Shown here: piece after piece, positions 19,601-22,911 of the stretch
How positions within the stretch are numbered: position 1 is the first letter of the stretch
How the letters are laid out: every line of letters begins with the position of its first letter
Origin: an uncultured SAR86 cluster bacterium
Lineage (GTDB): Bacteria > Pseudomonadota > Gammaproteobacteria > Magnimaribacterales > Magnimaribacteraceae
DNA length: 64,000 nt
Assembly (NCBI GenBank): GCA_902618945.1
Contig: CACNCK010000001.1
Span: forward strand, 174,160 to 238,159
Direction: 5' to 3'
Notes under the pieces: model-generated
The model's database searches: none
What the model was told of the DNA's origin: nothing
The model's input: only the letters and a program-made list of their open reading frames with translations
Program-made: the position numbers and the translations under genes

Positions 19601-19806
19601 TCTAGGGGTTTTGCAAGCAATCTTTCGGAGTCTTCAGGAGATACACCTTCAAAGCCAACACCTACGTAAGCACCTGGAAAATTTACTTGAGGTTCTGTTG
19701 CTTTTGGAAGTGCACTGAGAGCAAATAACCCAGAAAGTCCTAATAAAACTAGGATACTAAGTGAAGTTCTGCTTTTTTTTATGGCTCCTGTAATAAAGCT
19801 CTTCAT
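16609..19806 (-). CDS. RND-family efflux transporter permease
   Basis: 1065 aa; AcrB-like topology, MFGMLISMGMTIDGSIVVTEYADRKLAEG, second-half LALRSAILRLRPVFLTSFTTIAGLLPIALG. Confidence 0.92.
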   Translation of the reverse strand: MKSFITGAIKKSRTSLSILVLLGLSGLFALSALPKATEPQVNFPGAYVGVGFEGVSPEDSERLLAKPLEDALRTISGVVDIRSTSATGYAAVVVEFDQDVDIDEALYDVRVKVDEARAELPLDAREPTIREFTSTDNPVLTVSVASSVLPQRVLVNLTQELQDLIETHPNVLEAELNGVPEDLIEAIVDKTKLESYGISMNQLYQAVSNNNRVIPAGFQDTGTGRFAVNVPSVFSSLEDIETLPIKVSGTSVVTLKDVADVSLTFKDRGGYSRINGQQSLAIDIKKRIGTNIIDTVTDIRKMVEDKIETFPEGVDVNFVRDDSKFALQMISELQGNVLTSIALVMIVVLAALGFRTSMLVGMAIPFSYLFALLVLLILDKEFNFMVMFGMLISMGMTIDGSIVVTEYADRKLAEGMNRIEAYTAAATRMFWPVLSSTTTTLIAFTPLMFMPGFGAFIRDMPITVFCVLVGSLLYSLIFAPILGAMFGGLAKQSEAEINNVRLLESSDPLSLSGASGIYARKINKYLDTPGQTISIILGAIILCIGLWSHHGKGIVYFPQVAPQFAEVDILARGNLAVDEIRDIAIEAEQKIIDVKEIERLSVWSNSGGSRGLGRGSNSPDRVGGMFIDFYGEDEAVSDLNGFEIMDLLRERLNDTSGYIVQVEEEKGGPPIGKPLQINVSGDNEQALISAIRKIRSQLEGMGSFKDIEDTSVTRGIEWELEINRTKAAQYGAGLSDVGASVQMVTNGIKVGEYRPLNLDREVDIRVRFPKSERNIDQLEKLNVQTMKGLVPVSSFVETNIQPATKSISRKGGKRVHSIAANTVEGAIPSVQIKKVKDWLDAEDLGRGVTVNFDGFDKYNKEAADFLVLGFITMLFVMLIVLVAQFNSFYQANIVLSAILLSFGGVFISLLILDRSFSTLQTGISCVALAGIVVNNNIVLIDTFNLLKRNNPGSTTKSLALRSAILRLRPVFLTSFTTIAGLLPIALGYSIDLIDRTIKSGSYITSFWEQMAASLVVGLTVATILTLVVTPCALAFSDSIRAFPSRMIRLITRPFLTLNFSKRLTK

Positions 19807-20708
19807 ACATCAGGAGAAAATGATTCCTTAACGTTTACGGTTTGTCCTTGAAAGACATATTCTTGACCTAAAGTAATGATCCTAGCTTCTTCACCTAAAC
19901 CAGAAATCCACATACCTGTATTTGTGTCTTCAAGTATTTTAATTTCTTTAAATTCAACTCTATTTTCGGAGGTAACAGTTCTTACTCCAAGTTTTCCTTG
20001 GTCATTTAGAGATAATATAGCTGGTGATATTTTATGAGCAGGCTCTTCTTTTCCTTTTATAAAGATCTCTGCTGATACACCATCTCTGATGCTTCTGTCA
20101 TTGTTTTCGACACTAATTTCGACTCTGAATGTTCTCGTATTTTTGTCTGCAGACGAAGCTATAAAAGTGACTTGACCCTTAATAAATCTGCCAGAAATTA
20201 ATTTGGCTGTTGCTTCTGAGCCTAATTGAATCTGTGCAATATCTTTTTCTGCTATATCAGCAACTACTAACATTGGATCAGGATCAATCAATGAAGCACA
20301 AACGGCTCCAGTATTTAAAAAATCACCCTCGTCAACTCTTAAACTTTCAAGGTACCCTGAAAAGGGTGCAACTATTTTAGGATAAGCTTCTCTGCCTGCA
20401 ATATATAGTTGGCAGATTAGGTCTCCTTCTTTTACAAAGTCGCCTTGTTGTGCAGGTCGAGCTATTACTCTACCGCTTACTTCAGCCCTGACTTGTACAA
20501 ATTTATCAGCTTCAGTAAATCCACTTGATTTGAGTATTTGAGACTTACTAGTAGCTTTGCTATTGAGAATAGTCACAGAAGATAAAGTATCTAAAGAAGA
20601 GTCTTTTTTTTCAAAAGTCTCCTCTTGTACTAAGCTACCAGAGATCATCCATATGACTAAAAAGGATGCAAGGATCGAAGCGGTCTTGTAAGTTTGTTTG
20701 ATTTTCAT
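19803..20708 (-). CDS. RND efflux periplasmic adaptor (membrane fusion protein)
   Basis: VQVRAEVSGRVIARPAQQGDFVKEGDLICQL, APFSGYLESLRVDEGDFLNTGA; 4-nt overlap with the RND permease. Confidence 0.88.
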   Translation of the reverse strand: MKIKQTYKTASILASFLVIWMISGSLVQEETFEKKDSSLDTLSSVTILNSKATSKSQILKSSGFTEADKFVQVRAEVSGRVIARPAQQGDFVKEGDLICQLYIAGREAYPKIVAPFSGYLESLRVDEGDFLNTGAVCASLIDPDPMLVVADIAEKDIAQIQLGSEATAKLISGRFIKGQVTFIASSADKNTRTFRVEISVENNDRSIRDGVSAEIFIKGKEEPAHKISPAILSLNDQGKLGVRTVTSENRVEFKEIKILEDTNTGMWISGLGEEARIITLGQEYVFQGQTVNVKESFSPDV

Positions 20709-20719
20709 AAGATCTATAG

Positions 20720-20741
20720 GTGTTATACATAACTATAACAC
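20720..20741. promoter_or_regulatory. Perfect 8-bp inverted repeat upstream of RND adaptor (candidate operator)
   Basis: GTGTTATA-cataac-TATAACAC, 12 nt before the adaptor start codon on the minus strand; no T-tract, so not a typical terminator. Confidence 0.5.
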
Positions 20742-20760
20742 TAAAATACCTTATGTAAAA

Positions 20761-21807
20761 CTATATTTTGTGCTTTTCTTTTAGTTTTTTAAAATTTTCC
20801 TGAAGTGTTTCGGCATCTAACTTTTTTGAAGGTTTTGCTGATATGTTATCTTGTATCTCCCAGCTAGATTCGATTCTTTTATCGATTTGTTTGGATAATT
20901 GAGGTATTTGATCTTTATTTGCTCTTTCCCACTTATATTTGACGTGTTGAAGAAATTTGCTATTCCAAGAGTTTAGAGCCTGTCCTGACTCTTTCCAGTA
21001 CATTACGAACTCTAGCTTTGCATTTTCTGCAAATTCTTTTGGGATCTCCGTCATTTCAAGAATGTCAAAGAAATCTGAATTAGGGTTCCAATCTGATGTC
21101 ATAACTGATGGTGAGTTATCGTTTTCTTTAATCTCTTTGAATCTTCCCCATTGCCTTCGTATATGTGCAATAAATTTGCTATTCCAAATGTCAGATTCTT
21201 CCTTACGTTCTGTCCAATAGAGCACAAATTCAGGAACTTCCTTATCAATGAAATCTTCATTTATTCCAGAATTTATCAGTATTTCCTTGGCATCCACATC
21301 CGGAACCCAATTTTTATCGATGGGCTTAGTTTTCAACTTTTTGTTATCTTCAACTTCCTTATGACGCCACTTTTTGATTACAAATCTTAGAAATTTTACT
21401 CCCCAGTTTGTATCCGTCTCATTGCGTTCCTGATTAAGTTGCTTGAAATCATCAATCTGGAGATTTGCAAAATCCTCTGGAATACCATACTCATTAATTT
21501 GATCTATGACATCTTTATCAGGTACCCATTTATCTCTATTGTTAGTTGGAGTTTTTTTATTATGTTTTTTTGATGAAAAATGAGGCACTCCATCAACGAT
21601 CGTCTTGTTGATAAGACCTGTTTTAGTAAGTTGAGTAAGGACTTCCAAGATTCTTTCATCTGACCAAAAAGAAATATCTGAACAAATTTCTTGCAAAGAA
21701 ACTTGGCCCTGAAGCTTCTCTTCCTGTTTTAAATGCTCGAGTAAAACTGCTTCTTCCAAGCCTATTGTGTTGGCGATTTCTTTTGAGAAAGTTATCTTTG
21801 AAGTCAT
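20761..21807 (-). CDS. DnaT-like protein with three tandem DnaT-type ssDNA-binding domain repeats
   Basis: Three 54-aa units, each starting W-[VN]-P and ending W, at a 73-aa period: WVPDKDV...KFLRFVIKKW, WVPDVDA...EFVLYWTE...WNSKFIAHIRRQW, WNPNSDF...EFVMYWKE...WNSKFLQHVKYKW; resembles the E. coli DnaT C-terminal segment (WQPDADF...FIAYW...W). Confidence 0.75.
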   Translation of the reverse strand: MTSKITFSKEIANTIGLEEAVLLEHLKQEEKLQGQVSLQEICSDISFWSDERILEVLTQLTKTGLINKTIVDGVPHFSSKKHNKKTPTNNRDKWVPDKDVIDQINEYGIPEDFANLQIDDFKQLNQERNETDTNWGVKFLRFVIKKWRHKEVEDNKKLKTKPIDKNWVPDVDAKEILINSGINEDFIDKEVPEFVLYWTERKEESDIWNSKFIAHIRRQWGRFKEIKENDNSPSVMTSDWNPNSDFFDILEMTEIPKEFAENAKLEFVMYWKESGQALNSWNSKFLQHVKYKWERANKDQIPQLSKQIDKRIESSWEIQDNISAKPSKKLDAETLQENFKKLKEKHKI

Positions 21808-21861: not shown

Positions 21862-22911
21862 TTAGTTATTTCTAATTCTTACAGAATCAGCCAATTTGTG
21901 AAGACAATCTTTAGTATCTTGCCAGTTGATACATGCATCAGTAATACTTTTTCCATATGTCAGGTTATTTAAATCATCGGCCTTTTGATTTCCTTCCTCT
22001 ATATTGCTCTCTATCATGACTCCAGTAATTCTTGTCTCACCTGACTTTATCTGAGAAGCAATGTTATCGCATACATCTATCTGTTTTTTGTGCTGTTTAC
22101 TGCTGTTTCCATGACTCATATCAACCATGATTGAATCTTCAAGAGAGTTTGATTTTAGAATCTCAGAAGTTTGATCTATAAACTCTTTTTTATAATTCGG
22201 GTCTTTTCCTCCTCTAAGAATAACGTGACAGTCTTTATTACCAGAAGAAGAAAATATCGCTGCTTTACCTTCTTTTGTGACTGATAGAAATTTGTGAGGA
22301 TGTAGGGCAGATCCTATGGCATCAGCAGCTACCTGAATACCACCGTTTGTTGCGTTTTTAAAGCCAATAGGACAGGAAGAACCGGAGGCAAGCTCCCTAT
22401 GGATTTGACTCTCTGTAGTTCTAGCACCTATGGCTCCCCAGGAGATTAAATCAGCTATATATTGGGGCGTTATAACATCTAAAAATTCTGTTCCAGCAGG
22501 CATACCTAAATCATTTATATCTCTTAAAAGTTGCCTTGACACAGATAAACCTTTATCAATGTTGAAAGAATTATCCAGATCCGGATCATTAATAAGGCCT
22601 TTCCAGCCAACAGTTGTTCTTGGTTTCTCGAAATACACTCTCATAATAATCAGAAGTTCTTTTTCTAGAGCTTTCTTTTCTTTGAGTAAAAGGTTTGCAT
22701 ATTCCATAGCGGACTCAGTATCATGGATAGAACATGGCCCAACAACGACTGCTAATCTTTTATCTTTTTTACTGAGTATTTGAGAAAATTCTTTTCTAGA
22801 ATTGAAAACTGTTTGGGAAGAAAAATCTGAAATTGGTTGTTTATCCAATAAAGTGCTTGCAGAAATTACTTCCTGCCTTCCTGAGATTCTTAAATCACTT
22901 GTCTTATGCAT
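21862..22911 (-). CDS. 3-deoxy-7-phosphoheptulonate synthase (DAHP synthase, class I)
   Basis: VVGPCSIHDTESAMEYA, MRVYFEKPRTTVGWKGLINDPDLD, GARTTESQIHRELASG, VDMSHGNSSKQH. Confidence 0.95.
   Translation of the reverse strand: MHKTSDLRISGRQEVISASTLLDKQPISDFSSQTVFNSRKEFSQILSKKDKRLAVVVGPCSIHDTESAMEYANLLLKEKKALEKELLIIMRVYFEKPRTTVGWKGLINDPDLDNSFNIDKGLSVSRQLLRDINDLGMPAGTEFLDVITPQYIADLISWGAIGARTTESQIHRELASGSSCPIGFKNATNGGIQVAADAIGSALHPHKFLSVTKEGKAAIFSSSGNKDCHVILRGGKDPNYKKEFIDQTSEILKSNSLEDSIMVDMSHGNSSKQHKKQIDVCDNIASQIKSGETRITGVMIESNIEEGNQKADDLNNLTYGKSITDACINWQDTKDCLHKLADSVRIRNN

Follow-up and report, generated by a model that had tools for sequence, protein, structure and literature searches.

Locus and domain organization

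The window, a stretch of 64,000 nucleotides from the genome of an uncultured SAR86 bacterium, encodes on its reverse strand a protein with an N-terminal winged helix (WH), three DnaT domains and a helical C-terminal tail (Table 1). It belongs to f1, one of the SAR86 families referred to here as f1 to f4. The gene order in SAR86 was conserved, running from DAHP synthase through WH-DnaT and, where present, a phage lambda P-like gene, to the RND adaptor.

Table 1 Features of the WH-DnaT locus, in positions of the window.
Feature	Position	Strand	Basis
WH-(DnaT)3-tail protein gene	20761..21807	-	ORF, 348 aa; Pfam DnaT x3
N-terminal winged helix, residues 5-80	21568..21795	-	AlphaFold2 model; hhalign with phage QH16 protein
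DnaT repeat 1, residues 94-147, Tyr-Trp replaced by Leu-Asn	21367..21528	-	Self-comparison, residue mapping
DnaT repeat 2, residues 167-220, Tyr197-Trp198 kept	21148..21309	-	Self-comparison, residue mapping
DnaT repeat 3, residues 240-293, Tyr270-Trp271 kept	20929..21090	-	Self-comparison, residue mapping
Helix 303-316 with conserved Trp motif RIESSW	20860..20901	-	AlphaFold2 model and loci of relatives
Low-confidence (disordered) linker, residues 315-330	20818..20865	-	pLDDT below 50
Helical tail at the C-terminus (residues 332-348; terminal residues LQENFKKLKEKHKI)	20764..20814	-	P-tail profile 13.7 bits, E=0.0024; helix 332-345 modelled
52-base gap to next gene	20709..20760	.	Site of the P-like gene in f2 and f3
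DAHP synthase gene, upstream neighbour	21862..22911	-	Conserved in SAR86 and genome G101
RND membrane-fusion-protein gene, downstream neighbour	19803..20708	-	Conserved in SAR86

The AlphaFold2 model of the full protein had a mean pLDDT of 78.9. The region before residue 80, predicted from the sequence to be a separate winged-helix-like domain, was modelled as a winged helix with four helices (9-15, 17-33, 38-44, 50-63) and two strands (66-71, 74-79). This domain is homologous to that of the WH-DnaT protein of Stenotrophomonas phage QH16 (hhalign probability 96.8, E 2.4e-10). A fold search of the PDB with the whole model gave no match under 1e-3, the top ones being mostly winged-helix regulators. 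Against a viral structure library the whole model gave low-TM matches, with several replication-named proteins lower in the list, and a PHROGs search found no match for the window protein.

The phage QH16 protein (L210, 1246-2112), annotated as a DnaD-like primosome initiator, has a WH, one DnaT domain and a P-type tail, and thus the arrangement of SAR86 f1 save for the single DnaT domain. A RusA gene adjoins it, and no P gene lies beside it.

DnaT repeats and ssDNA-binding residues

Three gapless 54-aa repeats, each running from Trp to Trp and separated by 19-aa linkers, had been noticed in the sequence and were borne out at positions 20929-21528, within the gene of the 348-aa protein. Their pairwise identities were 18, 17 and 20 of 54, and the repeat pair scores were reached by none of 20,000 shuffles. 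The exact 73-aa period held as well, with 43 identities at offset 73 in the self-comparison and at most 18 at other offsets between 60 and 89. Their assignment as DnaT-type domains was supported by Pfam DnaT (PF17948), which matched three times (E=1.1e-54). When the repeat profile was compared with the PDB, a consistent signal came solely from E. coli-type DnaT (4ou7, 4ou6, 2ru8, 9zbu, 9zbt, 6aep).

The original prediction called the protein DnaT-like and compared it with E. coli DnaT. It is not an orthologue of the latter, since it lacks the DnaT N-terminal domain and a match to the NCBIfam DnaT whole-protein model, and its genome shows neither PriB nor DnaC. The Gilvimarinus homologue scored 16.8 bits against the NCBIfam model, for which the cut-off is 201 bits. 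PriA was present in the window's genome.

In E. coli DnaT, the double mutant Y127A/W128A shows nearly no ssDNA binding (PMC4132743). The equivalents of this pair are Y197/W198 in repeat 2, Y270/W271 in repeat 3 and L124/N125 in repeat 1, so that the YW core thought to be common to all repeats is shared by the last two only. An equivalent of K143 is retained in all three. The proposal that one chain carries three ssDNA-binding modules and replaces the DnaT trimer therefore keeps its three DnaT domains, but not three equal modules. The Tyr-Trp pair of repeat 1 was lost in 40/40 f1 sequences and kept in 47/48 from Cellvibrionales. Despite this loss, repeat 1 of f1 is still 62% identical inside the family, indicating a constraint of another kind. 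The first E. coli DnaT domain docks on PriA (PMC13377028), and our guess, by analogy, is that repeat 1 of f1 might do likewise. Repeat 1 decays across SAR86: f2 and f4 have lost it, in some f3 proteins it falls under the detection limit, and in f1 it is without YW.

In a cryo-EM study from 2026, four E. coli DnaT C-terminal domains formed a filament in which each domain interface held two nucleotides, the domains working together as an array along the ssDNA of the lagging strand (PMC13377028). The window protein, which we would read as DnaT domains arrayed on one chain, fits this filament.

Distribution and age of the architecture

A DnaT match was found in 55/61 genomes of the order, and nearly all of the proteins held two or three copies. 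Scanning 84,980 species genomes yielded 342 encoded relatives, of which the best 80 were examined as loci. They came from SAR86 and from Cellvibrionales or other Pseudomonadales, the latter groups including Gilvimarinus, Simiduia, Porticoccus, Halieaceae and Pseudohongiella. A WH and three DnaT domains were present in all of the 80 loci. The three-repeat array is not special to this genome, being standard in SAR86 and Cellvibrionales. The class-wide PF17948 survey and the full-length profile picked the same six genomes with the WH-DnaT family.

Nearly all SAR86 proteins had a repeat spacing of 73; in the other lineages it was mostly 72-84. Between f1 and Cellvibrionales, same-position repeats had likenesses of 0.53, 0.51 and 0.35, while different repeats inside f1 had means of 0.29-0.40. 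Same-position repeats are generally closer between lineages than different repeats within one protein, and the triplication is therefore older than the split of SAR86 and Cellvibrionales. A recent tandem duplication was rejected on the same comparison, the case being clear for repeats 2 and 3.

Two further observations concern single loci. Halioglobus sp. NAT121 had a second WH-(DnaT)3 locus (L185), in the same genome bin as L182 and with no P-like gene beside it. An f1-type protein, 68% identical, lay on a contig titled as alphaproteobacterium (L131, PBNH01000001.1, labelled Rhodobiaceae), which is probably mislabelled or from a mixed bin.

A lambda P-like partner gene

A P-like gene came directly after the WH-DnaT gene in 46/48 non-SAR86 loci; one of the exceptions ends inside the P gene, at the contig end. 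WH-DnaT loci with an adjacent P-like gene were also present in genomes G063 and G101. Within SAR86, the profile search detected the P-like gene in 9/9 f2 and 9/9 f3 genomes, and in 0/35 f1 and 0/8 f4 genomes, among them the single-contig f1 genome G005. No P-like sequence was detected in the 52 bases downstream of the window gene.

The P-like proteins match Pfam Phage_lambda_P (PF06992) and were assigned by PHROGs to the P-like helicase loaders. For the AlphaFold model of an f3 P-like protein, the best PDB match was lambda P in the complex with DnaB (9oa1, E=6.4e-4, probability 1.00). The window protein itself had no Pfam match to this loader body domain (PF06992).

Other combinations of these parts were seen elsewhere. 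Escherichia phage PAS61 encodes an HTH-DnaT protein followed directly by a lambda P gene (L209, 389-1986), an arrangement that is possibly a source type of the chromosomal organiser-loader pair. A natural fusion occurs in genome G203, which had no DciA profile match: an ORF starting at 673 on the forward strand (L117, 397 aa) combines a winged helix like that of the WH-DnaT family, a second helical region, the N-terminal half of a P-like loader and a P-like tail.

The C-terminal tail

An extra C-terminal tail, which the original prediction had overlooked along with the P-like neighbour in relatives, was found on the DnaT-like proteins of f1 and f4, exactly the families without a P-like gene. 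In relatives with a P-like gene, the DnaT-like protein stops at or close to the Trp motif (RIESSW in the window). In f1, the terminal Trp motif is followed by a disordered segment and then by a helix ending L-K/R-x-K-H/Y-x-I. In f4 the motif is gone, and the tail helix has the same ending. The P-like proteins of f2 and f3 share this type of ending, as a tail of 15-20 residues. The lambda P terminus RPLNRAQALAKIAEIKAKFGLKGASV and the SAR86 P terminus KPLDKKNQIERLEAIKKKYL were aligned by hhalign.

We built a P-tail profile from Cellvibrionales, f2, f3 and lambda tails and ran it on the 45 C-terminal residues of 746 proteins, with a cut-off of >3 bits. Among DnaT-like C-termini, 37/39 from f1 and 4/5 from f4 were positive, against 0/66 where the lineage has a P gene; in the background set, 1/634 C-termini was positive. 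The window protein scored 13.7 bits (E=0.0024), a sequence signature of a putative P-type C-terminal helicase-docking helix, and the WH-DnaT protein of phage QH16 scored 17.0 bits. A scoring matrix built solely from f2 and f3 tails separated the groups in the same way. With a SAR86-free profile, made from Cellvibrionales and phage tails, 13/39 f1 proteins and no controls were positive at the C-terminus, and the window protein reached just 0.8 bits (E=22). This profile is too weak as sole support for reading the tail as a loader tail. The link of the tail to lambda P runs via the SAR86 P tails, and the tail itself is a short segment rich in Lys and Leu.

In lambda P, a helix that is tentatively ascribed to the C-terminus lies against the linker helix of DnaB (PMC6391071), and the DnaB linker-helix module is a site common to several loaders (PMC9912922). 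Judged by these sequence comparisons, the pattern suggests that the DnaB-docking tail of the loader moved onto the organiser in the families that lost the P-like gene. In f2 genome G047 (L081, 2279-2731), the P-like gene is cut to 151 aa, having lost its second half and kept the C-terminal tail, a plausible intermediate toward such a transfer. The DAHP synthase tree placed f4 beside f2 (97/93) and rejected a single clade of f1 and f4 (p=0.013), separating the two families and pointing to probably two tail transfers; the same clade test on the DnaT-like tree gave p=0.26.

A different origin of the tail would leave the organiser part of this reading intact. The tail could be a chance or convergent amphipathic, basic helix, serving in oligomerisation or in binding DNA, PriA or SSB, as might be expected of a short, Lys-rich segment from AT-rich genomes with a weak score under the SAR86-free profile. 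We consider this rather unlikely, since the tail forms the extreme C-terminus of the f1 and f4 proteins, is confined to families that lack the P-like gene, and was found in none of the relatives with P and in a single background protein. The rejection of the f1 and f4 clade by the DAHP synthase tree, with a swap that probably happened twice, also speaks against it, the DnaT-like tree being the less decisive of the two.

Absence of known helicase loaders

The DciA profile matched 227/276 genomes of the class sample, 0/61 genomes of the order, and 0/6 of the genomes carrying the WH-DnaT family. The chance of the latter is 2e-5 (hypergeometric) with genomes taken as independent, and 0.005 when the order, G063 and G101 count as one lineage each. 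According to an earlier report, Cellvibrionales have neither dna[CI] nor dciA (PMC5109545). PriC was not found in the 61 genomes of the order. PriB was not found in the window's genome, and some relatives had sub-threshold, SSB-sized matches only, which we rejected as true PriB. Among the matches listed, there was no DnaC-length IstB/DnaC-family match over the cut-off; those to PF01695 were not taken as DnaC, their lengths (~450-485 and 800 aa) indicating DnaA and Lon. The window's genome is 82% complete, which makes single absences weak there, though not the family-wide pattern.

Very diverged proteins escape profile searches, and f1 might therefore have an undetected loader, either DciA in a strongly diverged form or a member of a new family, or else a self-loading DnaB, loader-free DnaB being under discussion for some bacteria (review PMC6784150); the window protein would then serve in restart only. 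This seems unlikely to us, given that the DciA profile is matched so widely in the class and nowhere in the order, and that the P profile detects distant P-like homologues elsewhere in the class and none in f1 or f4. Quite improbable is a role confined to PriA-dependent restart, in which a single chain with three DnaT modules for ssDNA binding would take the place of the E. coli DnaT oligomer and have no further part in loading: the three domains, the presence of PriA and the array of E. coli DnaT domains on lagging-strand ssDNA (PMC13377028) would suit it, but the stacking pair is lost from repeat 1 family-wide, the partners PriB and DnaC are absent, the protein is associated with P-like loaders and DciA absence across lineages, and the tail is left unexplained.

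Proposed mode of action

On our reading, the window protein is the SAR86 form of a phage-derived chromosomal replication organiser with a winged helix and three DnaT domains. In Cellvibrionales and SAR86, the pair of organiser and lambda P-like loader would stand in for DciA or DnaC. For the protein of the window, we favour as the probable explanation an initiator that recruits the helicase as a single protein and that arose when the docking tail of the P-like loader was transferred to the WH-DnaT organiser. The three repeats are real yet ordinary for this protein family; what departs from known systems is that the loader is gone, with its tail apparently kept on the organiser.

In such an initiator, the winged helix, PriA or both would guide the organiser to the origin or to an abandoned fork. 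Repeats 2 and 3 would wrap the exposed ssDNA as a ready-made short filament of the DnaT type, by analogy with E. coli DnaT, and the decayed repeat 1 would perhaps be a docking unit. Delivery of DnaB would follow the wrapping of ssDNA. In the ancestor, the P-like protein would have delivered DnaB while its C-terminal helix rested on the linker helix of DnaB, in the way reported for lambda P. In f1, the docking helix would be at the organiser's own end, a single protein both gathering ssDNA and recruiting DnaB. The sequences themselves show the domains and their conservation, the synteny, the lack of known loaders, the lost P-like gene and the tail; from these we infer ssDNA binding, DnaB binding and DnaB loading by the organiser; loading of DnaB by the tail alone is less secure, as the lost P-like body is the ring-opening part in lambda P.

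These results bear on how the DnaB ring is placed on DNA in bacteria without DnaC or DciA. Surface ocean waters hold SAR86 in abundance, and f1 shows none of the known loaders. We tentatively raise the possibility, itself still doubtful, that in a major marine lineage the replicative helicase is loaded by one protein that is no ATPase, consisting of a phage-type initiator head, a DnaT-type ssDNA array and the DnaB-docking helix of a lost lambda P-like loader, and that this arose probably twice within SAR86. If the tail binds DnaB, the minimum kept from a loader would be one docking helix. As a natural covalent DnaT array, the protein may also help in work on the 2026 filament model for E. coli DnaT.

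Comparison with known systems

In 2017, Brezellec et al. reportedly proposed a phage-derived pair, DopC/DopE, as a putative helicase matchmaker for lineages without DciA and DnaC, with DopC said to be derived from lambda O. The WH-DnaT organiser and its P-like partner are likely this pair, as we presume. Both are chromosomal pairs of phage origin with a lambda P-like member, in lineages without DciA and DnaC, and the pair was present in nearly all Cellvibrionales-type loci examined here. They differ in that the organiser here matches DnaT and not Phage_rep_O. PF04492 had no match in the window or Gilvimarinus protein, and lambda O matched it at 5.7e-36. A further difference is that f1 is without a P partner and has the P tail on the organiser; f4 is also without P. 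The DopE loader class is cited in PMC13326638.

With E. coli DnaT, the window protein shares the C-terminal three-helix ssDNA domain (PF17948), with the Tyr-Trp and Lys143 equivalents in repeats 2 and 3, and the dnaT-dnaC neighbourhood recalls the pairing of organiser and loader. E. coli DnaT, however, has one such domain and not three, another N-terminal domain, and PriB and DnaC as partners. The likeness to lambda P (PF06992) and the P-like loaders lies in the C-terminal helix behind a disordered segment; in place of the helicase-opening body, the window protein has a winged helix and three DnaT domains.

Firmicute DnaD resembles the window protein in combining a winged helix with a helical ssDNA domain, and in the likeness of FxxxIxxxW in its repeats to YxxxIxxxW of DnaD (PMC4909229). 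This is a resemblance only. Homology of the repeats to DnaD was rejected, as the repeat profile found no DnaD chain and the fold search one weak chain (E=0.077). The WH-DnaT proteins of Stenotrophomonas and Xanthomonas phages (QH16 and others) share the homologous winged helix, the DnaT domain, the type of C-terminal tail and the lack of an adjacent P gene, but they are phage-encoded and have one DnaT domain instead of three. If loading by a single protein is true, f1 would add to DnaC/DnaI, DciA and lambda P/DopE a further way for bacteria to recruit the helicase, one that needs only one protein.
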